The notes under the pieces were generated by a model. It had not been told where the DNA came from. It saw nothing but the letters and a program-made list of their open reading frames with translations, and searched no databases. From positions 1 to 23,060 of IMG/VR virus record IMGVR_UViG_3300021964_000569: a stretch of DNA of 23,060 nucleotides; one strand, written 5' to 3'. The position numbers were made by a program, and so were the translations under genes. Each line of letters opens with the position of its first letter. Position 1 is the stretch's first letter. Positions 5,412 to 23,060 of this stretch are shown here, one piece after another. This DNA is from a virus.

Positions 5412-5441
5412 AATTAAAATATTTTATGTAAGAAGCACTAC

Positions 5442-6092: not shown

Positions 6093-6103
6093 TTGTTTCT
6101 CCT

Positions 6104-6658: not shown

Positions 6659-6683
6659 TATTCTTTATAATTCATTTAGTAGT

Positions 6684-6695
6684 TATTTATTTATT
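6684..6695 (-). promoter_or_regulatory. Tandem late promoter element (AATAAATAAATA)
   Basis: Two overlapping AATAAATA matches on the minus strand (6684-6691 and 6688-6695) cover the stop codon of the gp67-like gene and lie about 25 bases before the 184-aa gene. Confidence 0.65.
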
Positions 6696-6876: not shown

Positions 6877-6901
6877 TGTTAAATTAATAAGGAACTATGT
6901 G

Positions 6902-6909
6902 TATTTATA
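6902..6909 (-). promoter_or_regulatory. Late promoter (perfect TATAAATA) before gp67-like gene
   Basis: The minus strand reads TATAAATA, identical to the T4 late consensus. It overlaps the stop codon of the portal gene and lies 25 bases before the next ATG. The coding sequence of gp20 thus ends inside the promoter. Confidence 0.8.
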
Positions 6910-8572: not shown

Positions 8573-8597
8573 TATAGTCTGCTGAACTAATCGCTAT

Positions 8598-8605
8598 TAT
8601 TTAGT
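8598..8605 (-). promoter_or_regulatory. Possible variant late promoter (ACTAAATA) before gp20
   Basis: The minus strand reads ACTAAATA 25 bases before the portal start. The CTAAATA core is one base from ATAAATA and is found at the same place before two other genes in the window. Confidence 0.4.
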
Positions 8606-8608
8606 CGA

Positions 8609-9175
8609 TCAGTTTTCACCCGACATTGGTGACCAGTATTGAACTTGGAATTCAACAGTGAATTCTTCAATAGTGTCTGCGGAATCGTAAGACAGATCAA
8701 TGGCAGAGATGTTGGTTGGGAAAATGCTATAGAACTTATATTGCTTAGCAACTTCCATTCCAGCACCTTCAACATTATTAAGTGTTGAAGCAGCTCTAGT
8801 GAACTGTTTAACAACTGCATCGACTTGATAGTCTGCAGGATCGGTTGAACCAGATCCATCAGCATATTGTCCGATGGATTGCATCCATGCTTCCATGGCA
8901 GTACGAATTCTGAAGTCAATGTCGTTAATTACAGTGACGGTCCAGGTATCAAAGGTTCTATCACCAGCAACCTTAAAAGTTCTACCTCTGAAAGGAACAT
9001 CGATTGAAGCGATGTTCGATGCAGGCAACTGAGCTGCCTTGCAGAGGATTGAGAAATCCTCTGCATCAAAACCATCAGAACCTGGGAACTCATTAGTAAG
9101 AACAACCTCAAATAGATTGGGGCGGGCACCGCCCCCGATGAGAGTTGATTTGAAATCCTGAATAGAGTGTGGCAT
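8609..9175 (-). CDS. gp19: Tail tube protein gp19
   Basis: The 188-aa product is the T4-type tail tube protein, somewhat longer than T4 gp19 (163 aa). It polymerises as stacked hexameric rings inside the sheath. Typical segments are GGGARPNLFEVVLTNEFPG near the N-terminus, FRGRTFKVAGDRTFDTWTVT in the middle (residues ~62-82), and the C-terminal YKFYSIFPTNISAIDLSYDS followed by the EEFTVEFQVQYWSP strand. The gene has a strong GGAGG ribosome site and a late promoter 20 bases upstream, so tube protein can be made in large amounts independently of the sheath. Order sheath-tube-portal is as in T4. The gene product at 1775-2329 shares its general plan. Confidence 0.95.
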   Translation of the reverse strand: MPHSIQDFKSTLIGGGARPNLFEVVLTNEFPGSDGFDAEDFSILCKAAQLPASNIASIDVPFRGRTFKVAGDRTFDTWTVTVINDIDFRIRTAMEAWMQSIGQYADGSGSTDPADYQVDAVVKQFTRAASTLNNVEGAGMEVAKQYKFYSIFPTNISAIDLSYDSADTIEEFTVEFQVQYWSPMSGEN

Positions 9176-9195
9176 TTTTTAATCCTCCGTGTTGT

Positions 9196-9203
9196 TATTT
9201 ATT
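9196..9203 (-). promoter_or_regulatory. Late promoter element (AATAAATA) before gp19
   Basis: The minus strand reads AATAAATA in the short gap between the sheath stop and the tube start, 20 bases before the ATG and just before the GGAGG ribosome site at 9184-9188. Confidence 0.68.
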
Positions 9204-9212
9204 ATCAATCGA

Positions 9213-11429
9213 TCAAACTGTGCCAGCAACTTCTTCAAAACTGATGCCAGTTCTGGTTGCAACGAACGTCAAGGTGACGTAGTTGATTGACTTAGTTGGC
9301 TTCAGGAAGATGTCTGCTCTGAACTCATTGTTGTCAATAACATCAGGAGTGTTGTTAGTGGAATCACAAACAACCAGGAATCCGTAGAGACCTCTCTTTG
9401 CCTGAACATCACGGAGATAAGGTTCAACAATGTTCTTGAAGTTTGCTCTTGTTAACTCATCGTTGAGTTCAAAGAGTTGTGCTTCTGCTGCTCTCTGAAG
9501 TGCTTGCTCAACAGTAAGGAACAAGCGACGAACATTAATTCTATCAAATGCTGATGCATATCCGAGAGCAGTTTTGTCTCCGAAGAGAAGTGTTCCAACA
9601 CCAGGTTTAGTAACAACTGGGTTGATTCTTGCCTGATAGAGACGATCTCTTTGAGCCTTGCTTGGGTTATAAGCAAGTTTCACCGCATTGTTGATGATTC
9701 CTCTCTGCTGGCCAGCAGGTGAGAACCAAGGATAAGCAACAATTCCAGTGCGAGTCATCAGACCAGCAACGTCAGCATTCGTTGGAATGTAACGGAACTT
9801 GTTGTTGAAACGATCATATGTATACTTGTAACCACTATCAAAGACTCCATAAGAAGAACTTGAAATGGTGCTGAAGTAGTTGATGAGATTTGTGGTTTGA
9901 GTATCTGTATTGGTCTGACCAATCAAATTAGTTCTGTGTGGTCCAACAACAGCAACACAATCCTTTCTCTCATTTGCAAGAGAGATGATGTAGTTTGCTT
10001 TTGCCTGTGACTCAAACTCTTCGGTGCAACCAGGGCCCATGATTAAGTAATCTGCTTCTTGCTCATCTTTGTTTGAGAAGAGACCATAAGAAGTAATCAA
10101 ACTACTCAGTTCTGCCTTCATACCGCCGTTGGTGGAATAGTCAACACCACCACCGAGTGTATAACCAACATTACCAATTGCACTGTAGGTAACATCTTGT
10201 GCATCCAGACCCCAGAGACCATCACCAGTTGTGACTGCGGTGAAGTCGGTAGAGAATCCAGTTGCTACTGGGACGGTTCCATGGAAGGTATCATCAGCAG
10301 AAGAAGGATTGCTTCCTGCATAGACATAGTTGGAGAAGTCTGCAACGTAACCCTCATACCAGATCTTCTGAGGAGCATTTACGTTAGAAATAGCATCCTT
10401 CGCTTTAGAAAGGCTTACATGCTTTTCAAGGAGAGAACCTGGAGTTCCAGTGATAGTTCCAAGATCGTCAACAACTGCAACATGGATACCATCGCCTTCG
10501 CCACTTCTGTTAGTGACATATACATTAGAAACAGGTTTTGGTGCAATAGACTTCCAATAGATTGTGCTGCTATCAATGCTAAGAGTCTGTTGGTCGTACC
10601 AGTCAACTGCGGTTGCGGGAGTGGTTCCTGAACCAGCACCATATGCTCCAGTGTTGATACCAGCATTATTGACAAAGAATACAGTGTCAGAGGTATCAAA
10701 TGATTGTGCAGCATTTCCTTCTGCATAGTTAATCTTGGTCTCGGTTCCTGCTGCAGAAACTCTTGAGACAACCTTAACATCAATTGTTGATGCGCTGTTG
10801 GTTGAGTCAGTTGAGACGCCAGTAATAATACCCTTCAGATAACCATCAAAGGTTGAAGTTGAACCCGAACCAGCAATGACTTGTCCTACCAGAGAAGCAG
10901 TAACTCCGAAACCAATCGTAGCACCAGCATTTCCGAGGTCAGTTGTGGTAATACCAATTGTTTGGTCTGCAAGGTCGTCAATAACACAAACTCTAAGACC
11001 ATTACCCCAAGTTCCTGGATTCTTAGCTGCCCAAGTATAATCAGTGTCTTCGCCGTCTGCGTGATTCTCAAGATAGTCGTCGTAGTTATTAATCTTGAGA
11101 GTTGTGGTTGAAGCAATGCCTACACCAGCATTTGCGTTCACCATCAGGGTGCTAGTTGTTGAACCAGTTCTTACAACCTTTAGAACACCACCGTATGAGA
11201 GGAAAGATGAGGCACTCATCCAGTACTCATATTGAGCATCAGTTGACAGGGGCTTACCGAAGGTGTCGATAAGTTGTTGTTCTGTGGTAATATTTGTAGC
11301 TTCATCAACGGGACCAATTTCAAAAGGTCCAGCAATACATCCAATATTATCAAGAACATTGTCAGCTCTTCCTACGGTTAAATCAACTTCCCTGACCAAT
11401 ACGCCAGGAGATAATTGAGGAGTCGCCAT
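9213..11429 (-). CDS. gp18: Contractile tail sheath protein gp18
   Basis: The 738-aa product is the T4-type tail sheath subunit (T4 gp18 is 659 aa). The sheath surrounds the tube and contracts to drive it through the cell envelope. The N-terminus MATPQLSPGVLVREVDLT is the family signature. The C-terminal ~200 residues form the conserved polymerisation domain, with GVGTLLFGDKTALG, FDRINVRRLFLTVEQALQ, the NDELTRANFKNIVEPYLRDV stretch and a final FVATRTGISFEEV. The middle third (about residues 100-450) is Ser/Thr/Gly-rich, less conserved, and is the surface-exposed part expected to vary. An AATAAATA late promoter is 35 bases upstream, and a GGAGAG ribosome site precedes the ATG. It follows the zinc-ribbon gene after about 80 bases. 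Confidence 0.97.
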   Translation of the reverse strand: MATPQLSPGVLVREVDLTVGRADNVLDNIGCIAGPFEIGPVDEATNITTEQQLIDTFGKPLSTDAQYEYWMSASSFLSYGGVLKVVRTGSTTSTLMVNANAGVGIASTTTLKINNYDDYLENHADGEDTDYTWAAKNPGTWGNGLRVCVIDDLADQTIGITTTDLGNAGATIGFGVTASLVGQVIAGSGSTSTFDGYLKGIITGVSTDSTNSASTIDVKVVSRVSAAGTETKINYAEGNAAQSFDTSDTVFFVNNAGINTGAYGAGSGTTPATAVDWYDQQTLSIDSSTIYWKSIAPKPVSNVYVTNRSGEGDGIHVAVVDDLGTITGTPGSLLEKHVSLSKAKDAISNVNAPQKIWYEGYVADFSNYVYAGSNPSSADDTFHGTVPVATGFSTDFTAVTTGDGLWGLDAQDVTYSAIGNVGYTLGGGVDYSTNGGMKAELSSLITSYGLFSNKDEQEADYLIMGPGCTEEFESQAKANYIISLANERKDCVAVVGPHRTNLIGQTNTDTQTTNLINYFSTISSSSYGVFDSGYKYTYDRFNNKFRYIPTNADVAGLMTRTGIVAYPWFSPAGQQRGIINNAVKLAYNPSKAQRDRLYQARINPVVTKPGVGTLLFGDKTALGYASAFDRINVRRLFLTVEQALQRAAEAQLFELNDELTRANFKNIVEPYLRDVQAKRGLYGFLVVCDSTNNTPDVIDNNEFRADIFLKPTKSINYVTLTFVATRTGISFEEVAGTV

Positions 11430-11464
11430 GTTTCTCTCCGTTTGAATCTCAGTTTATCTGAAAA

Positions 11465-11472
11465 TATTTATT
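11465..11472 (-). promoter_or_regulatory. Late promoter element (AATAAATA) before gp18
   Basis: The minus strand reads AATAAATA in the gap between the zinc-ribbon ORF and the sheath gene, 35 bases before the ATG. It is followed by an untranslated leader with GGAGAG. Confidence 0.68.
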
Positions 11473-11508
11473 AAAATGGGTGTTTTGACGGGGGAAATAC
11501 GACGCGAA

Positions 11509-11748
11509 CTACCAATCTGGATATTCCCATCTATCAAAAACCGTGTTTGTCATTCTACTAACAACTATTCTCTTTATAGTACACTCTTTACATTCGTATG
11601 AAAACGATGATGCTACTGGACCTCTATCTTTTCTTGTTCTGTAAAAACTATCCACAAGATTTTTTATTTCACCACAAACTCTACACTTCCTATCCTGTAG
11701 AAGAAGATGACCTAGTTTAAGTTGTTTGTCTAAATCATCTAGTTCCAT
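11509..11748 (-). CDS. Small zinc-ribbon-like protein (CX2C...CX2C)
   Basis: This 79-aa ORF begins immediately after the terminase stop codon (TAAATG). It has two CX2C pairs, CRVC at residues 22-25 and CKEC at 53-56, 27 residues apart, which is a classic zinc-ribbon spacing. The loop between them is basic and aromatic (SFYRTRKDR), and Arg/Lys follow the second pair. Similar pairs occur in small phage DNA-binding proteins and in the metal-binding part of HNH endonucleases, but no HNH catalytic motif is seen here. The link to terminase suggests a role in packaging or late regulation, which is only inference. The last residues are unusually Trp-rich (DRWEYPDW). Confidence 0.75.
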   Translation of the reverse strand: MELDDLDKQLKLGHLLLQDRKCRVCGEIKNLVDSFYRTRKDRGPVASSFSYECKECTIKRIVVSRMTNTVFDRWEYPDW

Positions 11749-13404
11749 TTAATATTTCCACATGTAGTCCATACCGCCAGCAGTTTCTCCATATTCTGAT
11801 GCATTAAACCACCTATCACCATCGCCATCAACAAAACTATCTTCTCCTAATCCATCATCCATAAATCCAAACGGAGCCATATCTTGCTCAATCTGATTCT
11901 TCTGTTCTTCATATAATCTCTTTCGGACATCTTGGTCGGTAAGTTCTTTAAAGTAGTCTTGTGCAACTAACCAAGCATAGATAACGAGACACATTGCTAG
12001 GTCATCATTGCATCCTTCTTCTGCCTCAAACGAATTGTGTTTTGAGATAAAAGTAGTCAGTTCTGATATAATCTCATAGTCATTGAAGATAAGTTTATCT
12101 TCTTCAATCATTGTCTTTAGATTGAGTGAACCAACCTTCTTTACAGTCTTGGACATCTTGACACCCAGTTGTGTCTTCTTACCAGAGAATCCCTGACCAA
12201 CAATCTGTCCTGCTCTACCTCTCATAGAACACATCAACAGATTCTGATACTCAAGGTCATATTGCAAGATACTTGCAACCTGATCTCCAATATCATTCAC
12301 TTCGCATAATATAAACGCACTATTATAGCTCTTCGCTACCTCATAGATAATATTGGGGAACAACATCGGTTTGATATCGTTATTCCGATACTTCGCAACA
12401 ATCCTATGAGGGAACTGTGTAATATCAGCAACAACAAATGCTGAATAGTCTTCTCCAACTCCTCTAGCAACATCAACAGTTATCACATAATCATGATCTT
12501 CTATTGATGATTCGTATACATCCAATCCAGCATTTCTAGTTTTTGGATTATCGTATACTAAAGTTCTGAGTTTACTTGGGTTGATTAATGTATCAACAGA
12601 ACCAAGGAATTCGCATTCAAATTCAACCTTAAACTGGGCTTCAGAAGTATTGGCAATAGTCTGTTCTTTCCAGACCTCATCTCTTCCAGGAACTTCTGAC
12701 CAGTGAACATCTGTTGGTACATATTCATTTTTACTTCTTTCCGCATCATGCCACATACGGTAGAAGTGATTCATACCATGTGGGGTAGATACAATAATTA
12801 CTTTGGTGTTTTTACCAGAAGTAATAGTAGGATAAACAGAGGCAAAGAACGAGTCAGCAACGTGATTCGGGACGAATGCGAACTCGTCGAGAAAGAGGAT
12901 GTTAAATGACATACCTCGGACAGCACTCGCAGACGTAGAAGCTGCCAATATCTTACTGCCATTTTCTAATTCCAGAGAACCCTTGTTCCATGATATAATA
13001 CCCTGTTGCATCCATTTAGGCAAGTTCTCATAAGCAGTCTGTAACCTACTCAGAAGCTCTCTTGCTGTTGCTGCTTTGTTAGCAAGGATGCCAATATTAA
13101 CACTATCGTTAAAAACTGCATAGTGAAGCAGGTAAGATACGACAGTTGTAGATTTGCCTGTCTGACGAGGCATCTTACAGATGTTGAATCTGTTTTCATG
13201 GAAGTTGTTAATTAACTTTTCTTGAAAATGGTATGGATGGAATTGAGTTAAACCTTCATCAAGAGAAACAATCTTAATATAGTTGTTTGCAAAATAAACC
13301 GGATCTTCTTTACACTTAACAAACTCAAGAATTTGTTCTTGAGTAAACTCAATAGCAGTATTTGCTTTTTTTAAATTAGGATTACCAAGATATACTTCAC
13401 TCAT
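11749..13404 (-). CDS. gp17: Terminase large subunit gp17 (packaging ATPase/nuclease)
   Basis: The 551-aa product is the T4-type terminase large subunit (T4 gp17 is 610 aa). The N-terminal ATPase has Walker A RQTGKST at residues 80-86, Walker B ILFLDE at 169-174 (catalytic Glu174) and coupling motif IIVSTPHG at 203-210. The C-terminal RNase H-like nuclease has its acidic residues at D311 (ITVDVARG), E368 (FILCEVND) and D467/D468 (GCNDDLA). The motor docks on the portal gp20, translocates DNA into the prohead, and cuts the concatemer. All key residues are present. The gene follows the 451-aa protein after a few bases with an AAGG ribosome site and no promoter. A small terminase (gp16) is not recognisable in the genes upstream. 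Confidence 0.98.
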   Translation of the reverse strand: MSEVYLGNPNLKKANTAIEFTQEQILEFVKCKEDPVYFANNYIKIVSLDEGLTQFHPYHFQEKLINNFHENRFNICKMPRQTGKSTTVVSYLLHYAVFNDSVNIGILANKAATARELLSRLQTAYENLPKWMQQGIISWNKGSLELENGSKILAASTSASAVRGMSFNILFLDEFAFVPNHVADSFFASVYPTITSGKNTKVIIVSTPHGMNHFYRMWHDAERSKNEYVPTDVHWSEVPGRDEVWKEQTIANTSEAQFKVEFECEFLGSVDTLINPSKLRTLVYDNPKTRNAGLDVYESSIEDHDYVITVDVARGVGEDYSAFVVADITQFPHRIVAKYRNNDIKPMLFPNIIYEVAKSYNSAFILCEVNDIGDQVASILQYDLEYQNLLMCSMRGRAGQIVGQGFSGKKTQLGVKMSKTVKKVGSLNLKTMIEEDKLIFNDYEIISELTTFISKHNSFEAEEGCNDDLAMCLVIYAWLVAQDYFKELTDQDVRKRLYEEQKNQIEQDMAPFGFMDDGLGEDSFVDGDGDRWFNASEYGETAGGMDYMWKY

Positions 13405-13410
13405 AAAAAA

Positions 13411-14766
13411 TTACCTTGTTTCTCGCCACTGAATAGTATTGAAGACATCTGTTGTTGTGTTAGTGTCCAAGTTAGTCACAATAACAGCAAAAATATTACT
13501 ATCATCACTATCTATATTCTGTGCGATGTATGATCTTCTTGCAGCAGTTGGATTAAAAGCAACAGTAGCAGATGCTTGTTGTCCCGATGGATTGTTTGCA
13601 GCAATCAAAGATGCCTGTCTCAAATCTCCACCAGTTGTTGTGAAGTTAGTCCCTACCGTGACATTATACTCAACTGCTGAATCATCATCAGCACTTACCC
13701 AACTTCCACCAGTAATATTAGTATTGCTTGGCAGTCTCCAAATCTCAATTCTACAATTTGTAGCATCACTTAAACATTCAATATCAGTTACTCTTACAGT
13801 TGTTCTATTTGGAATTCCTTTGAATGTATTCTTACAACGAATAGCCATAACACATTGTCTGGCAGTTGCGCCACCAGAAGAAGAGAAAGTGATTGGACCA
13901 TTAAAGGCACCAAACTCAACACCAGTCTCAACATATCCACCTTCACTCATTACAGTGGCACAAATTTGTTCCATTGATGTAATGCCAACAGCAGTATCAG
14001 TGTTGGCAACTTCACAACGAATTGGAAGTGAAGGTAAACTCCAATATGCGTGTTCTAAATTATTTGCGTGTTGGAACTCGTGGAAGTAATGATTTGTTCC
14101 ATCTAAAACTAACCCACACCTAAGTCTTCCAACTCCCAACCACTGGAAGTCTGTGATAAACAGTTGAGTCTTTGTCCAATCAACAGTAATGCTGGAAAGA
14201 CCCGTACCATCAAGTGGATCAAGACTCCAATTGACTTGATTGACTACAACATCACTTGTGATTCCAGTATTATATGATCTTCTTACAATAGAAACAATAC
14301 CATCTCCATCCTGCTGAAGAAACACTCCATTTCTATCATCAAAATATCCAACTTTTTTTGTTGTGTTTTCTCTATAATCAATAAAATTAAAACTTGCCAT
14401 AGCAAACTGAGATTTGCCTGGCATATAATGATGATACATTCTTGACTGGTGTATAACCTGTGAGGTTGAACCAACACCAACTATAAGTCCAATAGATGCT
14501 GTGTTTGCATTTACAACGGTTGTTGAACCAGCACCAATTTTTTTCGTCAATAATTCAACTTCTTCACCATAGATGTGGGAATAGTCTGCAAGAGTGTGTG
14601 GCTCAGATACACGCATTCTTCCAAATGCATCATATCCCCCTCCACCTACCCCAGTAGCAACTCCACAATTTCCAATATTACCAAATCTATCAGCACACAT
14701 GAACACTTCATGAAGTGTTCTTTCCTGGTTTAAATAATCTTGTGTAGTCTTATTCCACTGAGCCAT
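13411..14766 (-). CDS. 451-aa putative virion structural protein
   Basis: I cannot assign a named function. The protein is beta-rich, with many Thr, Ser, Gly and Asn, and no signal peptide or membrane segment, as expected for a virion surface or head-associated protein. Near the N-terminus it has GGGGYDAFGRMRVSEPHTLAD (residues ~41-60), a motif I associate with marine phage structural proteins. A central GYFDDRNGVFLQQDGDG segment is followed by VSIVRRSYNTG, then a YFHEFQHANNLEHAYW stretch rich in His and aromatics and a Thr/Asn-rich C-terminal region. It lies between the 108-aa ORF and the terminase, packed with only a few bases on both sides, so it is co-expressed with packaging genes. A head-fibre or decoration role is possible; enzymatic function is not evident. 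Confidence 0.8.
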   Translation of the reverse strand: MAQWNKTTQDYLNQERTLHEVFMCADRFGNIGNCGVATGVGGGGYDAFGRMRVSEPHTLADYSHIYGEEVELLTKKIGAGSTTVVNANTASIGLIVGVGSTSQVIHQSRMYHHYMPGKSQFAMASFNFIDYRENTTKKVGYFDDRNGVFLQQDGDGIVSIVRRSYNTGITSDVVVNQVNWSLDPLDGTGLSSITVDWTKTQLFITDFQWLGVGRLRCGLVLDGTNHYFHEFQHANNLEHAYWSLPSLPIRCEVANTDTAVGITSMEQICATVMSEGGYVETGVEFGAFNGPITFSSSGGATARQCVMAIRCKNTFKGIPNRTTVRVTDIECLSDATNCRIEIWRLPSNTNITGGSWVSADDDSAVEYNVTVGTNFTTTGGDLRQASLIAANNPSGQQASATVAFNPTAARRSYIAQNIDSDDSNIFAVIVTNLDTNTTTDVFNTIQWRETR

Positions 14767-14769
14767 TAA

Positions 14770-15096
14770 TTAGTCACTCCAACTTAATCTTTCTGGTTGA
14801 TATCTTTTAATTCCAGTAATTCTTAATGCACTATTAGAATTGTATTGTGCTGGATAAATGTTATGAACAACAGCACCTGGATATTCTGATTGAATCTGTT
14901 CTCCAAGTTCTTTTCTATTGGGAACTTCATTGGAGGAAATTTCCATTCTATAAAGTTTCCCTTCCCAAACAATGTCAGCAACAAACTCCTCACCCACCTT
15001 CTGGGGTTGAGGTGCTTCTCCACCAATATTTAGAGTGCCATTAAAATCCCCTTGAATTGTAACGCTCTCAGACATAAATTGTTTAAAGTTTTTCAT
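14770..15096 (-). CDS. 108-aa protein sharing a module with the upstream Cys-rich protein
   Basis: The start is taken as ATG 15096, which overlaps the upstream TGA by one base (TGATG); a GTG at 15108 would be an alternative with four more residues. The N-terminus MKNFKQFMSE is a leader type common to small cyanophage proteins of unknown role. Residues ~36-94 (VWEGKLY..., QIQSEYPGA, Y....ALRI) match the module at ~338-402 of the upstream 519-aa protein (NWRGKYL..., QIEKVYPGA, Y....FLRV). The two therefore share a small alpha/beta domain of about 60 residues, by eye. Function unknown; because the partner gene is adjacent and coupled, the two products may act together. Confidence 0.78.
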   Translation of the reverse strand: MKNFKQFMSESVTIQGDFNGTLNIGGEAPQPQKVGEEFVADIVWEGKLYRMEISSNEVPNRKELGEQIQSEYPGAVVHNIYPAQYNSNSALRITGIKRYQPERLSWSD

Positions 15097-16655
15097 CAGC
15101 AGTTCCACGCTCTAAGTGACTTATTGATTCTGCTATCAGGATCATTAGCAGTTTTGGCAGAAGTCAGTTTTTTCTTCATACCCTTCATCCTTGCACAGAA
15201 TGATGATCTTCTCTTATTACCAACCTTTTTGGAAGGTGCTTTGAGATCGGAACCTGGGTTTTCTCTTTCATAAGACTTGCGTCCTTTTTCATTGAGACCA
15301 CCAGACTCAGACTTACCTGCTTTCTTAGTCCAAGCAGCACCTTCTTCTATCTGTGGCCCTTTGGAATCCACAACATCTTCTCCTGATGTTGTAGGGTTAG
15401 TTCCATAAGTCTCCGCAATTCTTTCTCCGTCTTTGTTTGTTTCTTCTGAAACTCTGAGGAATGATTGTCCTGGTTCATAGCTTGAAACTTGAAAACTCTG
15501 CAGTCTTGCGCCAGGATATACCTTCTCAATCTGATCTTGCACATCAGACCTAGTTGGTAATTTTGTGTTCGGGAAGAACATTCTAAGAGAGAGATACTTA
15601 CCTCTCCAATTAAACATTACAAAAATAAGATTACCAGTCTTAGCAGGAATTCTGACTGCCTCTGTAACTTCTTCAGAAGGACATTCTTTCTTTCCATGCA
15701 CAGGGCATTCTTCACCCTTATGATTATGCATACATTCCGCTTCTTCTTTTTTGACACAGTTTGGATATCTTTTACCAAACATAGTCTTCATACCTTTCTT
15801 TTCATAACCAGGCCAGCACTTCTCACCAAGCAGTTCGCTACCAATTCCCTGAGTTGGTTGAAGTGGTTCTGGTTTAATTAAATCGACAAATTCAGCATAA
15901 GTTCTTCCTGATGCATCCTCAATGGAGACAGATTCTTTCTTTGTTGAGTTTCCCCAATTAGATGCACCTTTTTTACGACACTTGACTAGTGCTCCTGACG
16001 CATAAGCACTTGGCCAAACTTTATAACGAGATTTGACTTTATGATAGCAAGCATCTTTTTCACCTGCTGCTTCTTTGGTTATGTAACCTGCTGCTGCATC
16101 CATATTATGTTCAGTATCGGTGATTTTTGCTTGCATCCATGCGGGAAGGTCTTTCTCTTTTCTACCAAGTTTCTTTTTTAGAGACTTGACATCTTTTTCA
16201 ACACTACTCAGTTGAGATTGTGCCATTGCAACTTCATGGTCTTTTTTGGTCTCTTCAGTAGCCACATTAATTGCCTTCCCTCTTCTGTCTGGATTTGGGT
16301 CTTTACGATTCTTACGGCGGAACGCTGCCTCTTCCTCATCTTTGGAAAGGTTACGCTTCATCTTACTAGAACCACACTTTGGTTTTGTGGTTTGTCCTGG
16401 TTGTTTAGCACAGGGTTTACCTGCATATTTGCCCCCCAGTTGTACCCAACCAGGTTTGCCATCACTGGACTTACTTTTACCAAACCAGTCACGAAGAGAT
16501 GAATCTCCACTTTTATTTGCTTCGTCAATAGAAGCACCATTTTCTTTACGGAGCATACCAGCAGGGTCAACCATGAATCCAGGGGGAATATCCCTACATT
16601 CTTTATTCGTATAACAGTAATATTGCCCTGCAGGACAGCGACCGTTCTTCTTCAT
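15096..16655 (-). CDS. Large modular Cys/Lys-rich cyanophage protein, putative virion component
   Basis: The 519-aa product is a string of short Cys- and Lys-rich modules of a kind known from marine T4-like phages. In order: an N-terminal RCPAGQYYC...C module (6-20); a WVQLGGKYAGKPCAKQPGQT module ending in KPKC (70-94); a basic helical stretch (~95-175); a CYHKVKSRYKVWPSAYASGA module ending in LVKC (203-226; annotated elsewhere, I believe, as DUF5872); a CWPGYEKKGMKTMFGKRYPNC module (280-300); a His/Cys cluster CMHNHKGEECPVH (308-320); a YPGA module shared with the next gene (338-402); and a C-terminal FCARMKGMKKKLTSAKT...SLRAWNC module (487-519). The many paired cysteines suggest metal binding or disulfides. 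The strong positive charge would suit DNA contact or packaging inside the head, which is inference. A perfect late promoter precedes it, but no Shine-Dalgarno. Confidence 0.85.
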   Translation of the reverse strand: MKKNGRCPAGQYYCYTNKECRDIPPGFMVDPAGMLRKENGASIDEANKSGDSSLRDWFGKSKSSDGKPGWVQLGGKYAGKPCAKQPGQTTKPKCGSSKMKRNLSKDEEEAAFRRKNRKDPNPDRRGKAINVATEETKKDHEVAMAQSQLSSVEKDVKSLKKKLGRKEKDLPAWMQAKITDTEHNMDAAAGYITKEAAGEKDACYHKVKSRYKVWPSAYASGALVKCRKKGASNWGNSTKKESVSIEDASGRTYAEFVDLIKPEPLQPTQGIGSELLGEKCWPGYEKKGMKTMFGKRYPNCVKKEEAECMHNHKGEECPVHGKKECPSEEVTEAVRIPAKTGNLIFVMFNWRGKYLSLRMFFPNTKLPTRSDVQDQIEKVYPGARLQSFQVSSYEPGQSFLRVSEETNKDGERIAETYGTNPTTSGEDVVDSKGPQIEEGAAWTKKAGKSESGGLNEKGRKSYERENPGSDLKAPSKKVGNKRRSSFCARMKGMKKKLTSAKTANDPDSRINKSLRAWNC

Positions 16656-16684: not shown

Positions 16685-16692
16685 TATTTATA
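16685..16692 (-). promoter_or_regulatory. Late promoter (perfect TATAAATA) before the Cys-rich gene
   Basis: The minus strand reads TATAAATA right after the stop of the methyltransferase/oxygenase gene and about 30 bases before the next ATG. It is the nearest late promoter upstream of the whole block from the Cys-rich protein to the terminase, since no consensus match is seen in the gaps between those genes. Confidence 0.8.
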
Positions 16693-16693
16693 A

Positions 16694-18457
16694 TTACTCC
16701 GTATCAAAGAAAAACATCTGCCATAATCTGGCATTTTCCTTCACTGTGCCAAAATATTCTGATGCAGAATGTATACAACTAGCATCAAAGATAACCAAAC
16801 GATTGTATACATTTCCCAAAACATCTACAGGTTCAAATGGAGTTCCATCCAAATGACAATCGCCAGGAGTATCTTTCCAAGCAGCATCCCACCCGTCATC
16901 ATAATAATTTCTAGCTCTAGTTTTTTTATGAGCATATAATGTTGTTCCACATTCAAATGGGGCATCTGGAGTTAGATAAAGCATACCTCCCCATTTTTGA
17001 CTATCACAATGCCAGACTCTTGGTTGACCAGACCAACAATACTGAAACCTACCATTCATTCCATGGTCTTCCCACTTGGTAATTTTCTTACCCATAATCT
17101 CTTCAAACTTTTCTTTCAGTCCCGGAAATAAAAATTGTTGATGAGTTCTATTGCCAATATATCCACGACCAATTCCACCAATATGGTAATCTTGCTCTAA
17201 TGCAAACTTTCTTACTGAATCTGGGTCATCGTAAAAATTATCAACAACCCAACTAGTATTTTTAGAAGAAGATATTAAAAATTTTGACTGATTGTCATTT
17301 CTTAAGTAAATTTCATTACATCCACGCTTTTCTACAAAATCATATCCCCTATCTTTCATGTATGAGTGATAGTTTTCATCATTTTCTATGTTTTCCAAGA
17401 CCACAACTTTTGGTTGATATTTATTTCTATCGAGTCCAGTTAGAACCTCAATTTCCCACCCCTCAACATCTATTGAAAGAATATCAATATGTTCAACACC
17501 TATTCTTTGTAGCAAGTTGTCCAATCTAATAGTTTCAACTTGTATTGTTGTTTGACTGTTATGCTCTGGAACATTTTTGTGCCTAATATCTAAAGCAGAA
17601 AAACTTACCCCATCATTTTCTTCAGTATACCATTCATCGTTGTTTAGATTGACAACAAAATCTCTTTTCTCTTCCACATCAGAACAAGCATATTGATAGA
17701 CTTCGCTGCCCTCATCAATATGTTGCTGAACAAATTTTGGATTTGGTTCTACGGATACTGTTCTCCATCCACTATCTCTGAAGTGCTTTGAATTGCTGAT
17801 GAAAGTTGGAGGCCCAGCACCAACTTCAACCATTATTCCTTTGTATGAATAATCTTCAAAGAATGTTTCTCTAATGTATTTGTCGGTTTGATATTCAGCA
17901 TAATATTTGATGCCCAAGTTTTCCAATACTTTATTCTGATGATGTTCATCCATTTCATTCCAATAATTATCAACTAAATTTTCAAAACCACTCATACTTT
18001 CTTCTGTTTTCCCCCAGTACCAAGCAGAAACTGCCTGCTCATATAAAAGTCCATATATTCCAGGATATTTTGATTTGAATCTAAACTCTGGAGAATCAAA
18101 ATCGGAAATCTCAAAAGATTGTTTACATAAAAAATATGCGTCTTGAAATTGAGTATGCCAGTTCTGGAAGTTGGCAAGCATATAATATGCTTCGGGTCTT
18201 CTTGGTAAGATGGATATCGCATTTTTATACATACCCCGAGCATGTTCAATTCTATTTCCTTGAATATCAAAACATCTACCAATATGAATTAAACACTCAT
18301 ATGCCAAATCCAGATCATCTCCTGACCTATCAGCACATCTAAGGAAAAAAGAAATAGCTGCTGCAGTTTGTCCTTGCAAAAAATATTCAATCGCAAGATT
18401 GAAATTAGTTTCAGGATTCTCAGAATCTTTAATGTATTCGTTTAAACAATCAATCAT
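16694..18457 (-). CDS. Three-domain protein: TPR-like + FkbM methyltransferase + 2OG/Fe(II)-oxygenase-like
   Basis: The 587-aa product joins three domains. Residues ~16-165 are TPR-like helical repeats (for example YYMLANFQNWHTQFQDAYFL, 91-110), usual for protein docking. Residues ~205-385 form an FkbM-type SAM methyltransferase: SAM loop VEVGAGPP (210-217), acidic SVEPNP (235-240), and DILSIDVEGWE (325-335), the family hallmark. FkbM enzymes usually O-methylate sugars or polyketides. Residues ~400-587 resemble a 2-oxoglutarate/Fe(II) dioxygenase: HCD at 483-485 and distal His563 would bind iron, and Arg577 could bind 2-oxoglutarate (a DUF6445-like pattern, from memory). The start overlaps the end of the beta-propeller gene by eight bases, so the two are coupled. 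The target is unknown; the neighbouring collagen-like fibres or their glycans are candidates. Domain calls are firm for FkbM, good for the oxygenase, and moderate for TPR. Confidence 0.88.
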   Translation of the reverse strand: MIDCLNEYIKDSENPETNFNLAIEYFLQGQTAAAISFFLRCADRSGDDLDLAYECLIHIGRCFDIQGNRIEHARGMYKNAISILPRRPEAYYMLANFQNWHTQFQDAYFLCKQSFEISDFDSPEFRFKSKYPGIYGLLYEQAVSAWYWGKTEESMSGFENLVDNYWNEMDEHHQNKVLENLGIKYYAEYQTDKYIRETFFEDYSYKGIMVEVGAGPPTFISNSKHFRDSGWRTVSVEPNPKFVQQHIDEGSEVYQYACSDVEEKRDFVVNLNNDEWYTEENDGVSFSALDIRHKNVPEHNSQTTIQVETIRLDNLLQRIGVEHIDILSIDVEGWEIEVLTGLDRNKYQPKVVVLENIENDENYHSYMKDRGYDFVEKRGCNEIYLRNDNQSKFLISSSKNTSWVVDNFYDDPDSVRKFALEQDYHIGGIGRGYIGNRTHQQFLFPGLKEKFEEIMGKKITKWEDHGMNGRFQYCWSGQPRVWHCDSQKWGGMLYLTPDAPFECGTTLYAHKKTRARNYYDDGWDAAWKDTPGDCHLDGTPFEPVDVLGNVYNRLVIFDASCIHSASEYFGTVKENARLWQMFFFDTE

Positions 18458-19427
18458 TTATAAAATTCTCCAACGCATCTTCAGAAATTTTTAACGCAAA
18501 AGCAGCGTTATCTTGGAATCCAAATGTGATAATGTAATCTTTATTGTATTTGGCCATTCCACAAGCAAACTCAATTTCAGCACCCATAAAATCAAATACT
18601 TTTGACCGTTTTATGACTTTCCAGTTTTTATCCCAGTAGGTAAACTGATGTCTATAAGTAGCATTTTTTCTATCTTGCTTACTTTTAAAAAGATGTGTGA
18701 TGTGGTGTATTGCTAGATACCCATCTTTATAAGGTATTACTTGTGAACCCCCTCTTAATGGAATATTGATACTCTCATCATATTCCCCAAGAAAAGTAGT
18801 TTTACAAGTTTTATCGGCTGGATTGTACTTTACAATTTCGACCGGATTTGACCATTTTACATAGTGATATGGTTGGTCTAAAATTGGCATCCAATTTTTT
18901 TCACAATAAGTATCATCTTTTCCTGGAGCAGGTATTCTTTGGCGTGATATTTCTTTTACTTTTTCTGAAACATATTTCAATTCAGACAATTCCATTCTTC
19001 CAACACCATTCCGTGTAGTGTCTCTTCTGACGCCACAAAGAAAATATTTCCCGTCCCACTTAACAATTCTAGAATCTTCAAGTCCAACAAATTCCCATAA
19101 AGGTTTTTCATCAAGTTCTGAAGTGTCTACTTGATGAAATTCTTCAATATTAAGTTCAGAATCTAGTTTACAGAAAAAATTTGTTGTTGTTAAACTTATA
19201 TCATTTTCTGGATTTAGATAGATGAGAGGTCCCCAAATGTGCTCATAATTTCCCTTCTCTGAATGGTATAATGTATATTGACAATGCCGAATATTTACTA
19301 AAATATTTTCTTCTTCGTCAACAAATACTGATGGATTAAATAGTCCAGTTCCTTTCGTATGCTCAAATGGAATGGTAAGTGGTTTTATTATTCCACCATT
19401 CTTCAAGCAATAATTCGCAAAACCCAT
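18450..19427 (-). CDS. GH130/GH43-like five-bladed beta-propeller protein
   Basis: The 325-aa product has the motif series of beta-propeller glycosidase or glycoside phosphorylase families such as GH130: GLFNPSV (28-34), GLEDSRIVKWDGKYFLCG (115-132), EKNWMPI (176-182) followed by WSNPVEIVKY (192-201), RGGSQVI (225-231) and ACGMAKY (288-294), close to blade-by-blade repeats. The Asp in LEDSR fits the catalytic acid of GH130 enzymes, which phosphorolyse or hydrolyse mannosides; similar domains also occur in glycan-assembly proteins. No signal peptide is present, so it probably acts in the host cytoplasm on phage or host glycans. It is led by a perfect TATAAATA promoter and is translationally coupled to the FkbM/oxygenase gene. 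Exact substrate and activity cannot be read from the sequence. Confidence 0.78.
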   Translation of the reverse strand: MGFANYCLKNGGIIKPLTIPFEHTKGTGLFNPSVFVDEEENILVNIRHCQYTLYHSEKGNYEHIWGPLIYLNPENDISLTTTNFFCKLDSELNIEEFHQVDTSELDEKPLWEFVGLEDSRIVKWDGKYFLCGVRRDTTRNGVGRMELSELKYVSEKVKEISRQRIPAPGKDDTYCEKNWMPILDQPYHYVKWSNPVEIVKYNPADKTCKTTFLGEYDESINIPLRGGSQVIPYKDGYLAIHHITHLFKSKQDRKNATYRHQFTYWDKNWKVIKRSKVFDFMGAEIEFACGMAKYNKDYIITFGFQDNAAFALKISEDALENFIND

Positions 19428-19444: not shown

Positions 19445-19452
19445 TATTTATA
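19445..19452 (-). promoter_or_regulatory. Late promoter (perfect TATAAATA) before the beta-propeller/FkbM pair
   Basis: The minus strand reads TATAAATA between the 61-aa collagen-like ORF and the beta-propeller gene, 17 bases before the ATG. It gives the enzyme pair its own late expression. Confidence 0.8.
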
Positions 19453-19457: not shown

Positions 19458-19643
19458 TTATTTGCAATCAAATACAATATATTCTAAAGCAAAATAACTT
19501 TTTCCTTTAGTTCCAGTTATAGCTTGGATACCAGTGGTTCCATTTGTTCCTTTAATGCCCTGGATATCATCCGCTCCTTGAATTCCTTGTGCTCCAGTAG
19601 TAAAGTCTTTACTACCTTTTATTATTTTAGATAAATCTGCCAT
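19458..19643 (-). CDS. 61-aa short collagen-like protein
   Basis: The product has an N-terminal cap MADLSKIIKGS, a short run of Gly-X-Y triplets (GAQ GIQ GAD DIQ GIK GTN GTT GIQ ...) that becomes imperfect, and a non-repetitive tail (YFALEYIVFDCK). The cap matches that of the upstream 53-aa ORF (MANLSSLIG), so the two are tandem paralogs. Its ATG overlaps the upstream stop (TAATG). Such a short triplet block could just form a small trimer; a role as a fibre tip, adaptor or accessory adhesin is inference. It may also be the shortened remnant of a longer fibre gene. Confidence 0.72.
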   Translation of the reverse strand: MADLSKIIKGSKDFTTGAQGIQGADDIQGIKGTNGTTGIQAITGTKGKSYFALEYIVFDCK

Positions 19644-19804
19644 TATCTTAGTACAAAAGATGGTCCAATACTAGGTCTTCCTTGAATTCCCTGAATTCCT
19701 TGTGTTCCTTGTGTTCCTTGTGTTCCTTGTGTTCCTTGAGCACCTTGCGTTCCTTGAGCACCTTGTGCTCCTTGTGCTCCAATCAGTGATGATAAATTTG
19801 CCAT
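19643..19804 (-). CDS. 53-aa mini collagen-like protein
   Basis: This ORF is below usual length cut-offs but well supported. It has an ATG four bases after the upstream stop region, an AGG eight bases before it, and a stop that overlaps the next ATG (TAATG). The product starts MANLSSLIG, continues with about eleven Gly-X-Y triplets (mostly GAQ, GTQ and GIQ; residues 9-41), and ends RPSIGPSFVLR. It is nearly all collagen-like repeat with a short cap and tail. The N-terminal cap is shared with the next gene. Gln in the third position is nearly constant and Pro is absent from the repeats, as in the larger fibres. Function unknown; likely a virion surface component. Confidence 0.7.
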   Translation of the reverse strand: MANLSSLIGAQGAQGAQGTQGAQGTQGTQGTQGTQGIQGIQGRPSIGPSFVLR

Positions 19805-19808: not shown

Positions 19809-20699
19809 TTAACCTGGTGATAAGTATGCGAGAATTGCTAATCCCTTAGAGTTAGTACCTTGAATTCCCTGCACCCCCTGAATTCCTTGAATTCCTTGAG
19901 TGCCTTGAATTCCCTGAGAACCTTGTGGACCATTAGATGAAAAAACTTCCCAGGTAGAACCATCATAAATTAATTCTAAAAATATGCCACCAATATCAAC
20001 ATTTAAGTTTTCCGAATCTCCTTCTATTGTTGATCCATTTCTTGCAACTGTTAGATTTGTAGTTGACCAATTTGCCCCATCAGCAATAACAATACTATCG
20101 CCAGTGGATGGTGATGCTGGAAGAGTGATTGTAAATGTTCCACCAGAGGTGTCTGCTATTAATCTATCTCCACTGGATGCGGTATAATTTGTAGTTTTTC
20201 TTGACCATGCATTTACTCCTCTAAAACCCTGAATTCCTTGGATACCTTGAGTTCCTTGAGAACCAGTACTACCCGTTGAACCTGTTGAACCTGTGGTTCC
20301 TTGGATACCTTGAGCACCATCAGAACCACTAGAGCCTGTGGTTCCTTGAATACCTTGAGTTCCTTGAGAACCAGTGCTACCTGTTGAACCTGTGGTTCCT
20401 TGAATACCTTGAGTTCCTTGAGCACCATCGGCCCCATCACCACCAAGAATACCGGCAATTCCCTGAATACCCTGAATACCCTGGATTCCTTGAATCCCTT
20501 GAATTCCCTGGATTCCAGCCTTTGAACCTTGCCAAACACCAGAACTATCAATAATTTCAGTTCCGTTAATTGAAATGTTTCCAGCAATATCTAACTTACC
20601 TGCCGGAATAGTAGAACCAATTCCAACACGGTCATTGGAAATACTTACAAATATATTATTATCAGAAACTAGGTCAGCCGACCTTCTAGTTTTTCCCAT
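19809..20699 (-). CDS. Collagen-like tail fibre protein (296 aa)
   Basis: The product starts with a cap (1-60) containing NNIFVSISNDRVGIGSTIPAG and LDIAGNISINGTEI, sequences usual for the trimerising part of phage fibres. Residues ~62-161 are Gly-X-Y triplets (GIQ, GTQ, GTT, GST and a GGDGADGAQG block shared with the upstream fibre). Residues ~162-256 form a beta-rich globular domain (NAWSRKTTNYTASSGDRLIA, FTITLPASPSTGDSI, LELIYDGSTWEVFSS), and 257-282 are a second short triplet block before the end AILAYLSPG. The globular domain between collagen-like stalks is of a type common on phage fibres and may contact the host. No Shine-Dalgarno is seen; a CTAAATA element is 17 bases upstream. Confidence 0.85.
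   Translation of the reverse strand: MGKTRRSADLVSDNNIFVSISNDRVGIGSTIPAGKLDIAGNISINGTEIIDSSGVWQGSKAGIQGIQGIQGIQGIQGIQGIAGILGGDGADGAQGTQGIQGTTGSTGSTGSQGTQGIQGTTGSSGSDGAQGIQGTTGSTGSTGSTGSQGTQGIQGIQGFRGVNAWSRKTTNYTASSGDRLIADTSGGTFTITLPASPSTGDSIVIADGANWSTTNLTVARNGSTIEGDSENLNVDIGGIFLELIYDGSTWEVFSSNGPQGSQGIQGTQGIQGIQGVQGIQGTNSKGLAILAYLSPG
19854..19931 (-). repeat. Second collagen-like triplet block of the 296-aa fibre
   Basis: Nine-base units coding Gly-X-Y (mostly GIQ) near the 3' end of the fibre gene, residues ~257-282. Confidence 0.85.
20217..20516 (-). repeat. Collagen-like triplet repeat array in the 296-aa fibre gene
   Basis: About 33 nine-base units encode Gly-X-Y. Higher-order blocks of the form GTT-(GST)n-GSQ-(G[IT]Q)n alternate, and the block coding GGDGADGAQG also occurs at 21644-21690 in the neighbouring gene. 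Confidence 0.9.
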
Positions 20700-20716: not shown

Positions 20717-20723
20717 TATTTAG
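20717..20723 (-). promoter_or_regulatory. Possible variant late promoter (CTAAATA) before the 296-aa fibre
   Basis: The minus strand reads CTAAATA, then CC, overlapping the stop codon of the upstream fibre gene and 17 bases before the next ATG. It is the third example of this variant in the window. Confidence 0.38.
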
Positions 20724-23060
20724 GTAAATAGACATGATGTGATGTCAGTAACAGCAGCTGCTCTTATTGTTCCAGTAACGTGTACATCACCAGAAACATC
20801 TAAATCAGCATTTGGAGTAACGATTGTATCACTCTCTCCATATCCAACTCTTAAACTTGTTGCAACAGTAAGTCTACCGTTGGTTGTAAGTGCCATAGCA
20901 CCTTGAGCAGTAGTGTGACCGTTATCCCCCCACCAGAATCCTCTATCATTTTCATTATTAAATTGGAATGTCATTGCATAGTCATTCAATGCACCGAATG
21001 TGGCGCCACTTTCCATTCCAATTGAAAATGAAGAAGAATTCCACAGTCTTATCTTGTCTCTGGTTGATGTGGTGTTATGATTAATTATTTGAGATCCTCC
21101 AAGAGTAAGTCCACCATTAAAAGTAATAGCACCAGAAGCAGTATCAGCAGCATCAGACCTTAAGAAAGAAGTGCTATCAAGACTATCAAGTGTGTCTGCA
21201 TTGGTGGTTGTTAGTCCACCAGGTCCCTGAATACCTTGAATTCCTTGAGAACCAGTGCTACCTGTTGAACCTGTGGTTCCTGTTGTACCTTGAATACCTT
21301 GAATACCTTGAATACCTTGGATTCCTTGAGCGCCAGTGCTACCTGTTGAACCTGTTGAACCTGTTGAGCCTGTGGTTCCTTGGATACCTTGAATACCTTG
21401 AATACCTTGGATTCCTTGAGAACCAGTGCTACCTGTTGAACCTGTTGAACCTGTTGAGCCTGTGGTTCCTTGGATACCTTGGATACCTTGGATACCTTGA
21501 ATTCCTTGAGAACCAGTGCTACCTGTTGAACCTGTGGTTCCTGTTGTACCTTGAATACCTTGAATACCTTGGATTCCTTGAGCACCAGTGCTACCTGTTG
21601 AACCTGTGGTTCCTGTTGTACCTTGAATACCTTGAATACCTTGAATACCTTGAGCACCATCGGCTCCATCACCACCAAGAACGCCAGCAGTTCCCTGAAT
21701 GCCTTGTGGTCCTGCAGACTCAAAAGAAGATATTGTTAAAGTGTCCCCAGTTGATGCTCCTGATGTCAATACAACACTTGTTCCATTAGTAGCAGTAAAG
21801 TCATCTGGGTCTAAGTGAGCACCATTCAAATATACATCAAGGTTTCCAACAGAATATGCTAAGGTATTTGTATTATCATCAGTTCCGCTGAAGGTTGTTT
21901 GTCCTGAGGTTGCAGTATATGTAAATGAAGACCTGGTGAAACTTGAGCCTTGGACACCTCGAATACCTTGAGTTCCTGTTGCGCCTTGAGTTCCAGTAGT
22001 TCCCTGAATACCTTGGATTCCTTGAGTGCCTTGAGTGCCTTGAGTTCCAGTGGTTCCTTGAATACCTTGTGGGCCGGCAGATGAATAAGAAATTACATCA
22101 ACAACATCATATAATGATGCACCAGTTCCTAAAACAATAGATGTTCCATTAGTGGCAGTGAATTCATCTTCAGTTAGACGAATACCATTGAGAAATACAT
22201 CAACATAACCAACGACATAATTTGTCGTAAATGTCGTTTGTCCTGCAGTTGCATCAAAACTTGCTGTAGTTTTATTGTGGCTGAATCCTTGAGTACCCTG
22301 AATACCTTGAGTTCCTGTATCACCTTGAGTACCAGTAGTTCCTTGAACACCTTGGATTCCTTGAGTGCCCTGAGTTCCAGTGGTTCCTTGAATACCTTGG
22401 ATTCCCTGAGTTCCAGTAGTTCCTTGAATACCCTGGTCCCCTTTAGTTCCAGTTCTAGCAAAAGTAATAATTACATCTTCTGAATTGCTAAATGAAGTTG
22501 CTCCAGAAAGATATGAAACATTTACTTTATGATATCCAGTTGCTTCAGTATTTGTTCCACTGATTGTAAAAATAGCAAAATCATCAGAATTTGTTCTGTT
22601 TGAAACTCTAACATGACCCTTGATAGTAGATGTAGAGTCATCAATTGTCCTTAAGAATGACTGAATGTCTGTCCCATTATCATCAGTATCATCAATATAC
22701 AATAATGTTGCAGATGATAAATCTGTGTCGTTAAATCTTAACTTTCCTTGACCAGGGTCAGAGTCAGTTGTTGTAGTGTCAAATGTATAATCAAATGTTG
22801 CGCCGCCAAAGTTTCCATCAGTACCTGTAGTACCTTGAGTTCCTGTTGCACCTTGAGCTCCAGTAGTTCCCTGAATACCTTGGATTCCTTGAATACCTTG
22901 GATACCTTGAGAACCAGCATCACCAATAATGGCGATAGTCATAAAGACTTCATCACCATTACTAATACTTGCCCAACTATCTCTATCAATATAGTCAATA
23001 TCTAAAGTTCTCCAAGAACCATTATCAGTTTGACCAGTTACATAGAACTTAGCATTTACT
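20720..23060 (-). CDS. Large collagen-like tail fibre protein (N-terminus outside window)
   Basis: The frame stays open to the right edge (first full codon at 23059), so at least 779 residues are visible and the true start lies outside. The ATG at 22942 is internal: the 39 codons before it encode VNAKFYVTGQTDNGSWRTL and similar fibre-like sequence. Counting from that ATG, collagen-like Gly-X-Y blocks lie at ~10-46, 168-220, 290-335 and 411-573. They are separated by beta-rich globular modules. Two modules, ~222-289 and ~336-410, are duplicates (ATAGQTTF/ATSGQTTF, DVFLNG/DVYLNG, FTATNGTS). The C-terminal part (574-740) has NADTLDSLDSTSFLRSDAAD, common in phage fibre tips, then a beta-rich domain ending in DVSGDVHVTGTIRAAAV. 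Host adsorption is the likely role. Confidence 0.9.
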   Translation of the reverse strand, partial: VNAKFYVTGQTDNGSWRTLDIDYIDRDSWASISNGDEVFMTIAIIGDAGSQGIQGIQGIQGIQGTTGAQGATGTQGTTGTDGNFGGATFDYTFDTTTTDSDPGQGKLRFNDTDLSSATLLYIDDTDDNGTDIQSFLRTIDDSTSTIKGHVRVSNRTNSDDFAIFTISGTNTEATGYHKVNVSYLSGATSFSNSEDVIITFARTGTKGDQGIQGTTGTQGIQGIQGTTGTQGTQGIQGVQGTTGTQGDTGTQGIQGTQGFSHNKTTASFDATAGQTTFTTNYVVGYVDVFLNGIRLTEDEFTATNGTSIVLGTGASLYDVVDVISYSSAGPQGIQGTTGTQGTQGTQGIQGIQGTTGTQGATGTQGIRGVQGSSFTRSSFTYTATSGQTTFSGTDDNTNTLAYSVGNLDVYLNGAHLDPDDFTATNGTSVVLTSGASTGDTLTISSFESAGPQGIQGTAGVLGGDGADGAQGIQGIQGIQGTTGTTGSTGSTGAQGIQGIQGIQGTTGTTGSTGSTGSQGIQGIQGIQGIQGTTGSTGSTGSTGSTGSQGIQGIQGIQGIQGTTGSTGSTGSTGSTGAQGIQGIQGIQGIQGTTGTTGSTGSTGSQGIQGIQGPGGLTTTNADTLDSLDSTSFLRSDAADTASGAITFNGGLTLGGSQIINHNTTSTRDKIRLWNSSSFSIGMESGATFGALNDYAMTFQFNNENDRGFWWGDNGHTTAQGAMALTTNGRLTVATSLRVGYGESDTIVTPNADLDVSGDVHVTGTIRAAAVTDITSCLFT
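21224..21712 (-). repeat. Main tandem repeat array (collagen-like) of the large fibre gene
   Basis: About 54 Gly-X-Y triplets (nine-base units) form five higher-order blocks of 70-90 bases. Each has the form GTT-(GTT or GST)n-G[AS]Q-(GIQ)2-4. Several blocks are nearly identical in DNA, including synonymous positions, which points to recent expansion by slippage or recombination. Confidence 0.92.
21938..22075 (-). repeat. Collagen-like block between the two duplicated fibre modules
   Basis: Nine-base Gly-X-Y units (GTQ, GIQ, GTT) covering residues ~290-335 of the large fibre, counted from the internal ATG. It separates the two duplicated globular modules. Confidence 0.85.
22283..22441 (-). 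repeat. Collagen-like block before the first duplicated fibre module
   Basis: Gly-X-Y units (GIQ, GTT, GTQ, GVQ, GDT) covering residues ~168-220 of the large fibre, counted from the internal ATG. Confidence 0.85.
22805..22915 (-). repeat. First collagen-like block visible in the large fibre
   Basis: Gly-X-Y units (GIQ repeated, then GTT, GAQ, GAT, GTQ) covering residues ~10-46, counted from the internal ATG. Confidence 0.85.

Follow-up and report, generated by a model that had tools for sequence, protein, structure and literature searches.

Virus-encoded modification of virion proteins is already known in kind. Mycobacteriophages Che8, Corndog and Myrna encode glycosyltransferases that act on the capsid and tail-tube proteins of their own virions (Freeman et al. 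2023, cited in PMC12363180), and mimivirus (L230, R699) hydroxylates and glycosylates its own collagens (PMC9546862). In Bacillus, the exosporium collagen BclA is O-glycosylated, and the glycan on threonine is thought to improve the hydration network and stability (PMC8968730). Glycosyltransferases also lie beside the tail fibres in the host-recognition region of pelagimyophages, which are aquatic phages, and are read there as lipopolysaccharide (LPS) modification genes (available sections of PMC7029224).

Here we describe a viral locus that shares features with each of these systems and differs from each in others. It lies in a 23,060-nt IMG/VR virus record (hereafter the window), where a gene for a β-propeller protein is followed by a gene for a TPR, FkbM methyltransferase and 2OG/Fe(II) oxygenase fusion. 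As in the mycobacteriophages, the glycosyltransferases of such loci are phage-encoded, and glycosylation of the fibres is what we infer here. The mycobacteriophage system differs in its enzymes and hosts and acts on substrates other than collagen-like fibres; the available sections of PMC12363180 describe no propeller and TPR core. The mimivirus system shares 2OG and glycosyltransferase domains with the phage cassette, but mimivirus is a eukaryotic giant virus that targets hydroxylysine, whereas the phage collagens are almost without lysine and the propeller is unrelated. Neither the core nor a link to a collagen type appears in the available sections of PMC7029224 on pelagimyophages. The propeller resembles GH130 mannoside phosphorylases and hydrolases and Leishmania GT108 in its five blades and N/D/D mannose-site motifs (PMC8950772, PMC4264767), and its ED motif is that of the GH130_NC group; unlike these enzymes, it has sequence similarity to them at or below detection, is confined to viruses and is paired with a TPR protein. 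The fusion recalls OGT and SPINDLY (TPR plus glycosyltransferase) and AspH (TPR plus 2OG oxygenase) in joining TPRs to a protein-modifying enzyme, but its catalytic parts come from different families, and TPR matches are common rather than specific. We found no account of the propeller and TPR core, its virus restriction or its link to a collagen type in the open-licence PMC literature.

Positions 1 to 16,655 of the window read as the late and structural region of a cyanomyovirus-like phage genome, with tail, portal, capsid and terminase-like ORFs, and virion structural PHROGs were matched among the window's proteins. The remaining features are listed in the table. A sequence-only reading of this DNA had described two overlapping genes with their own late promoter, directly after four collagen-like genes, and our analysis confirmed this description: the two genes share eight bases, which suggests translational coupling, and four collagen-like ORFs precede them on the same strand. 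The window holds four TATAAATA octamers against 1.16 expected by chance. The promoter upstream of the propeller is a local feature of this phage's locus; the octamer occurs near the propeller start in only 4 of 81 loci (0.8% in random windows), and we rejected a late promoter as a general trait of propeller loci.

Table. Features of the propeller locus and the adjoining collagen-like genes in the window.
Feature	Positions	Strand	Details
TPR - FkbM methyltransferase - 2OG/Fe(II) oxygenase fusion	16694..18457	-	587 aa; Pfam/PHROGs/NCBIfam, model; core gene 2
2OG/Fe(II) oxygenase-type domain	16703..17281	-	residues 393-585; phrog_1644, DUF6445, HxD...H...R
FkbM-type SAM methyltransferase domain	17339..17830	-	residues 210-373; PF05050, TIGR01444
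TPR domain	17909..18457	-	residues 1-183; profile, model; found in 79/84 propeller loci
8-nt overlap of propeller and fusion genes	18450..18457	-	ORF coordinates
GH130/GT108-like five-bladed beta-propeller	18450..19427	-	325 aa; ORF, Pfam, AlphaFold, fold matches, conservation; core gene 1
T4-type late promoter octamer TATAAATA	19445..19452	-	begins 25 nt upstream of propeller ATG
Mini collagen-like ORF	19458..19643	-	61 aa
Mini collagen-like ORF (GAQGAQGTQ...)	19643..19804	-	53 aa
Collagen-like fibre protein, proposed substrate	19809..20699	-	296 aa; PF01391 E 5e-19
Large collagen-like fibre protein, proposed substrate	20720..23059	-	at least 740 aa, 5' end beyond window; PF01391 E 7e-47

The propeller scored just below the curated cut-off of the Pfam GH130 family (PF04041; 23.8 against 26 bits, E 2.5e-5), which 13 of 33 members of the propeller family matched at E<=0.01. 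We therefore speak of a GH130-like fold and do not file the protein as a GH130 member. An AlphaFold model built from 60 homologues (mean pLDDT 94.1) predicts the five-bladed β-propeller of GH130 and GT108. Its best fold matches were GH130 mannoside phosphorylases (Foldseek E 7e-10, Z 23.7, 273-278 residues), and Leishmania GT108 enzymes ranked next with Z about 18. The GH130 half of an earlier "GH130/GH43-like" description thus stands, while GH43 folds are more distant matches (Z 17.9 and lower) and a GH43 identity was rejected. Invariant in the 60 homologues are N31, E117, D118, R134-R135-D136, H242, H260, E286 and D306, and when aligned by eye the motifs FNP, GLEDxR and FGFQDN correspond to FNP, GCEDPR and YGTAD of a true GH130 protein. 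The GH130 mannose site consists of Asn/Asp/Asp residues and a preceding Glu (PMC4264767); N31, D118 and D306 are likely its counterparts, as assigned by motif and spacing rather than by superposed coordinates. Because the invariant motifs match this site, the propeller is likely an active enzyme on a mannose-like sugar, with hydrolase, phosphorylase and transferase alike by sequence. A PDB sequence search with the propeller profile gave no match, and hhalign of that profile against one Chitinophagaceae GH130 was not significant, although the last Asp motif did align. GH130 members also include degradative enzymes, which counts against a role in glycosylation.

All three domains previously proposed for the fusion were recovered, by Pfam, PHROGs, a TPR profile and an invariant 2OG motif. 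The FkbM domain exceeded both of its cut-offs (PF05050, residues 212-373, E 6.6e-20, 72.4 against 22.7 bits; TIGR01444, 54.7 against 37.7 bits), and one catechol O-methyltransferase fold match (Z 15.1) covers this part. The C-terminal domain matched DUF6445 (E 1e-5) and phrog_1644 (E 1e-32), and its motif H483-x-D485 ... H563 ... R577, comprising the metal triad and 2OG-binding arginine of 2OG/Fe(II) oxygenases, does not vary among the 14 aligned proteins bearing the domain. The TPR profile match spans about residues 5-181. The domain was modelled with pLDDT mostly >90 and fits TPR proteins, O-GlcNAc transferase included, with Z about 16; its sequence match to the OGT TPRs is weak (E 1e-4). 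This similarity by itself says little, since TPR folds match widely. The Foldseek matches of the fusion were filled by the TPR domain, with the AspH oxygenase plus TPR among the matches listed.

A scan of viral contigs gave at least 595 IMG/VR stretches with a confirmed relative of the propeller. In 84,980 cellular genomes, one per species, it occurred five times, each on a small MAG contig (3 to 18 kb), and a plasmid search gave no match. We compared the best 80 of the at least 595 viral loci, two phage-database relatives and the window; the resulting 84 entries count the window twice (once as L001). The specific TPR domain lies downstream of the propeller in 79 of the 84, and in the other five the contig ends soon after the propeller or leaves little downstream sequence. 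Where the TPR gene was located (78 non-redundant loci), it overlaps or abuts the propeller gene in 70, most often with an overlap of 8 or 4 nt. The TPR part is the constant part of the second core gene, while the remainder of the cassette varies. Around this invariant pair lies a larger system that is modular and restricted to viruses.

A Pfam tally of 86 downstream cassette proteins gave GT2 (19), FkbM (12), DUF6445 (11), GT25 (10), GT7C (10), GT17 (9), radical SAM (7) and Methyltransf_24 (5), and also GT47 and WavE. The 2OG domain is present at 26 of the 84 loci. In several loci the propeller is itself fused to FkbM plus radical SAM, radical SAM, GT17-like or methyltransferase domains, of which FkbM was detected by search and the other names were read from sequence. 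Judged by these families, the enzymes downstream of the propeller form a glycan-building and glycan-modifying cassette. A hydrophobic segment, in each case marginal or weak, was found in 2 of 88 cassette proteins, and the tally contained no Gtr, flippase or polymerase-like family; the polytopic membrane glucosyltransferase or flippase of Gtr-type O-antigen seroconversion is therefore missing from the cassette. No PADLOC defence model matched at E<=0.01, and a function in anti-phage defence was rejected. The core is not the mark of one clade, because it accompanies no fewer than two divergent T4-type portals (E about 1e-190 and 1e-105) and is also carried by contigs of 118-200 kb without a T4-type portal.

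Upstream of the propeller, most neighbours fall into tail-fibre and "collagen like minor tail" PHROGs, so that, as in phage virion glycosylation, glycosyltransferases are linked to virion structural genes. A collagen above the Pfam cut-off was present on 33 of 40 propeller contigs of at least 30 kb, including all of those of at least 80 kb; the seven without one are fragments of 30-64 kb. As controls we used 25 contigs selected for portal proteins most closely related to that of the window. None encoded the propeller and one encoded a collagen, a difference in collagen content of P 2e-10 (Fisher; 1e-5 when the controls are limited to those of 27 kb or more) by statistics that, like those on composition below, ignore phage kinship. 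In a set of 14 contigs (62-244 kb), the propeller lay closer to a collagen than expected from uniform placement (combined P 2e-6), with one clear exception (L037) whose nearest collagen is 77 kb away. The pair is accordingly neither common in collagen-less phages nor remote from fibre loci, the two outcomes that would have spoken against the original proposal. Fibre genes cluster, so proximity shows nearness to the fibre region and not to collagen alone. In many loci a long non-collagen fibre is the direct neighbour of the propeller, and the substrate may therefore be fibres in general.

For the reciprocal comparison, contigs were picked solely by DNA encoding either GTQGTTGTQGT (Thr-type) or GIQGIQGIQG (GIQ-type). 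The propeller was present on 27 of 42 Thr-type contigs, compared with 9 of 48 GIQ-type contigs (P 1e-5) and 0 of 25 portal controls (P 4e-8). The other 15 Thr-type contigs had neither the propeller nor the TPR domain, which was thereby rejected as a marker of propeller-less Thr-collagen phages.

The composition of the collagens follows the same division. Triplets in the window have Thr in 26%, Ser in 20% and Pro in 2.7% of X positions, with Thr in 28% and Pro in 0% of Y positions. They are therefore as rich in Thr and Ser as first noted, but proline is rare rather than strictly absent. Collagens at propeller-positive loci have 2% Pro in X, 0.3% Pro in Y and 0.4% Lys in Y. Bacterial collagens, in contrast, usually have 19-31% Pro in X and place Thr in Y (PMC8968730), whereas the phage collagens are led by Thr in X and Gln in Y, with Pro about 1-2%. 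Per contig within the GIQ-selected set, median Thr in X was 25% with the propeller and 1.6% without it (P 8e-6), and Pro in X was 1% and 17% (P 0.001), at equal GC. Given this contrast, the cassette accompanies collagens largely rid of proline with Thr in its place, an association uncorrected for kinship; common descent may account in part for the composition as well as for the co-occurrence.

We propose, with a probability of about 60%, that the pair is the constant core of a phage glycosylation cassette acting on the phage's own fibres, chiefly the Thr-rich, Pro-poor collagen-like ones. The substrate, the sugar donor, the order of steps and the stabilising role in what follows are our inference. 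Late in infection, the collagen-like chains and the cassette enzymes would be made. Like the TPRs of OGT, SPINDLY and aspartyl hydroxylase, the TPR domain could hold the unfolded repetitive chain or scaffold the enzymes fused to it. The GH130/GT108-type propeller would handle a mannoside-like sugar, as a transferase from a nucleotide sugar or a sugar-1-phosphate, and the variable partners (here the FkbM O-methyltransferase and 2OG oxygenase, elsewhere GT25, GT2, GT7C, GT17 and radical SAM enzymes) would extend, methylate or oxidise the glycan or residue. Decorated chains would then trimerise and join the virion. The sugar would probably replace the stability and hydration given elsewhere by proline or hydroxyproline, or vary the fibre surface; a hydrating Thr glycan of the BclA type would suit collagens without proline. 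A more ambitious version, which we regard as possible and put forward only tentatively, is a dedicated modular machine for phage collagen modification, in which a virus-only GH130-fold glycosyltransferase, a TPR collagen-holder and exchangeable modules would yield glycosylated threonine, enabling long, near-proline-free triple-helical fibres in several tailed-phage lineages. The modules exchanged would be glycosyltransferase, methyltransferase, radical-SAM and oxygenase.

The sequence-only reading had suggested that the pair builds or edits a glycan or a hydroxylation on the fibres. Our results support this in part and enlarge it, and a glycan on the fibres is better supported than simple hydroxylation because the downstream cassettes consist of glycan enzymes. 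Were the 2OG and TPR parts chiefly to hydroxylate collagen residues, with sugar enzymes acting on the new hydroxyls after the logic of animal lysyl hydroxylase and GT25, one could point to the intact 2OG catalytic motif, the 2OG domain at 26 loci, GT25 in 10 of 86 cassette proteins, the AspH match and the mimivirus precedent (PMC9546862). Yet collagen prolyl and lysyl hydroxylases act on Pro or Lys in X or Y, which the phage collagens almost lack, and with propeller and TPR constant, a 2OG domain absent from most loci cannot be the core function. We rejected prolyl/lysyl hydroxylation as the core role on collagen composition and consider this explanation improbable. It is less probable still that the propeller is a phosphorylase or hydrolase freeing host mannoside sugars for phage metabolism, its place by the fibres being only positional. 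The closest folds are indeed catabolic GH130 phosphorylases, and GH130 enzymes act in mannoside breakdown (PMC8950772), but the genes beside the propeller and the domains fused to it are those of glycosyltransferases, methyltransferases and radical SAM enzymes instead of other hydrolases or transporters, the propeller never occurs without its TPR partner where the sequence allows, and the link to Thr-type collagens would go unexplained.

Two further explanations concern the linkage itself. The cassette may alter the O-chain or another surface polysaccharide of the host and so block superinfection, its place in the host-recognition region following because both functions concern the host surface. 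The glycosyltransferases of the pelagimyophage region have been read in this way (available sections of PMC7029224), GT25, GT2 and WavE include LPS enzymes, and the cassette content is variable. We nevertheless think this unlikely: it gives no reason to expect the link to Thr-type collagens, seen in either direction; the almost complete lack of hydrophobic segments and the lack of Gtr, flippase or polymerase-like families in the tally speak against it; a late promoter, in the window's phage, would be late for superinfection exclusion; and the constant, specific TPR domain better fits a protein substrate. All of these points would still be compatible with cytosolic core-LPS enzymes. Alternatively, cassette and Thr-rich collagens may be functionally unconnected and both simply mark certain clades of aquatic phages. 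Many of the contigs are aquatic and related, and our statistics carry no tree-based correction. However, the cassette spans divergent portal classes and contigs without that portal, it lies physically close to the collagen within contigs, and near relatives of the window's phage selected by portal are almost free of both, so that cassette and collagen were gained or lost together. Like hydroxylation, shared ancestry is in our judgement improbable as the whole explanation.

If fibre glycosylation is the correct reading, phages encode their own post-translational modification of collagen in a widespread, swappable cassette. Many "orphan" glycosyltransferases, FkbM methyltransferases and 2OG oxygenases next to tail fibres would thereby gain a function; their annotation at present is usually host LPS modification, metabolic gene or "minor coat protein". 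The stability of near-proline-free collagens would also have an explanation, and the fibres with which common aquatic phages contact their receptors would be expected to bear a layer of glycan. Cultured relatives exist in S-SCSM2R, whose host is Synechococcus WH7803, and DSL-LC02, and they make the fibre-glycosylation reading testable.

Two types of collagen could be distinguished among the phage loci L169-L248. Where the triplets were of the GPT/GAT type, with Pro in X and Thr in Y, the cassette was absent; where they were of the GTQ/GTT type, with Thr in X and Gln in Y, it was present. Two of the four collagen-like ORFs preceding the pair in the window are too short to make an ordinary fibre, and are possibly fragments or small accessory chains.

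Additional features flanking the propeller and fusion genes.
Feature	Window position	Remark
Collagen-like ORF	19458-19643	61 aa
Collagen-like ORF	19643-19804	53 aa
Second TATAAATA	16685-16692	directly behind pair; serves 15096-16655
DUF6321 protein gene	15096-16655	next gene after pair

Because the second late promoter serves the following gene, the propeller and fusion genes may form a late unit of their own. Within the fusion gene, positions 16703-17281 match phrog_1644, which is labeled 'minor coat protein', a label also transferred to cyanophage records. This family is of the 2OG/Fe(II) oxygenase type, with the HxD...H...R motif intact, and the label looks like a misannotation.

In the cultured relative DSL-LC02, the 2OG domain is encoded by a separate ORF rather than fused as in the window, and the TPR gene (L003:9875-12618) bears a different FkbM domain and a radical-SAM-like part. 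The module is thus re-dealt around an unchanged core.

The records behind loci L307 (G115:6401-7351 and 8007-8984) and L327 (G129:15202-16179 and 16835-17785) each carry two diverged propeller genes in tandem within one cassette, as if to handle two different sugars. A distant propeller (25% identity), annotated as a beta-mannosyltransferase, is present in the actinophage Actinomycetia phage DSL-LC01 (OQ999401.1 7481-8272).
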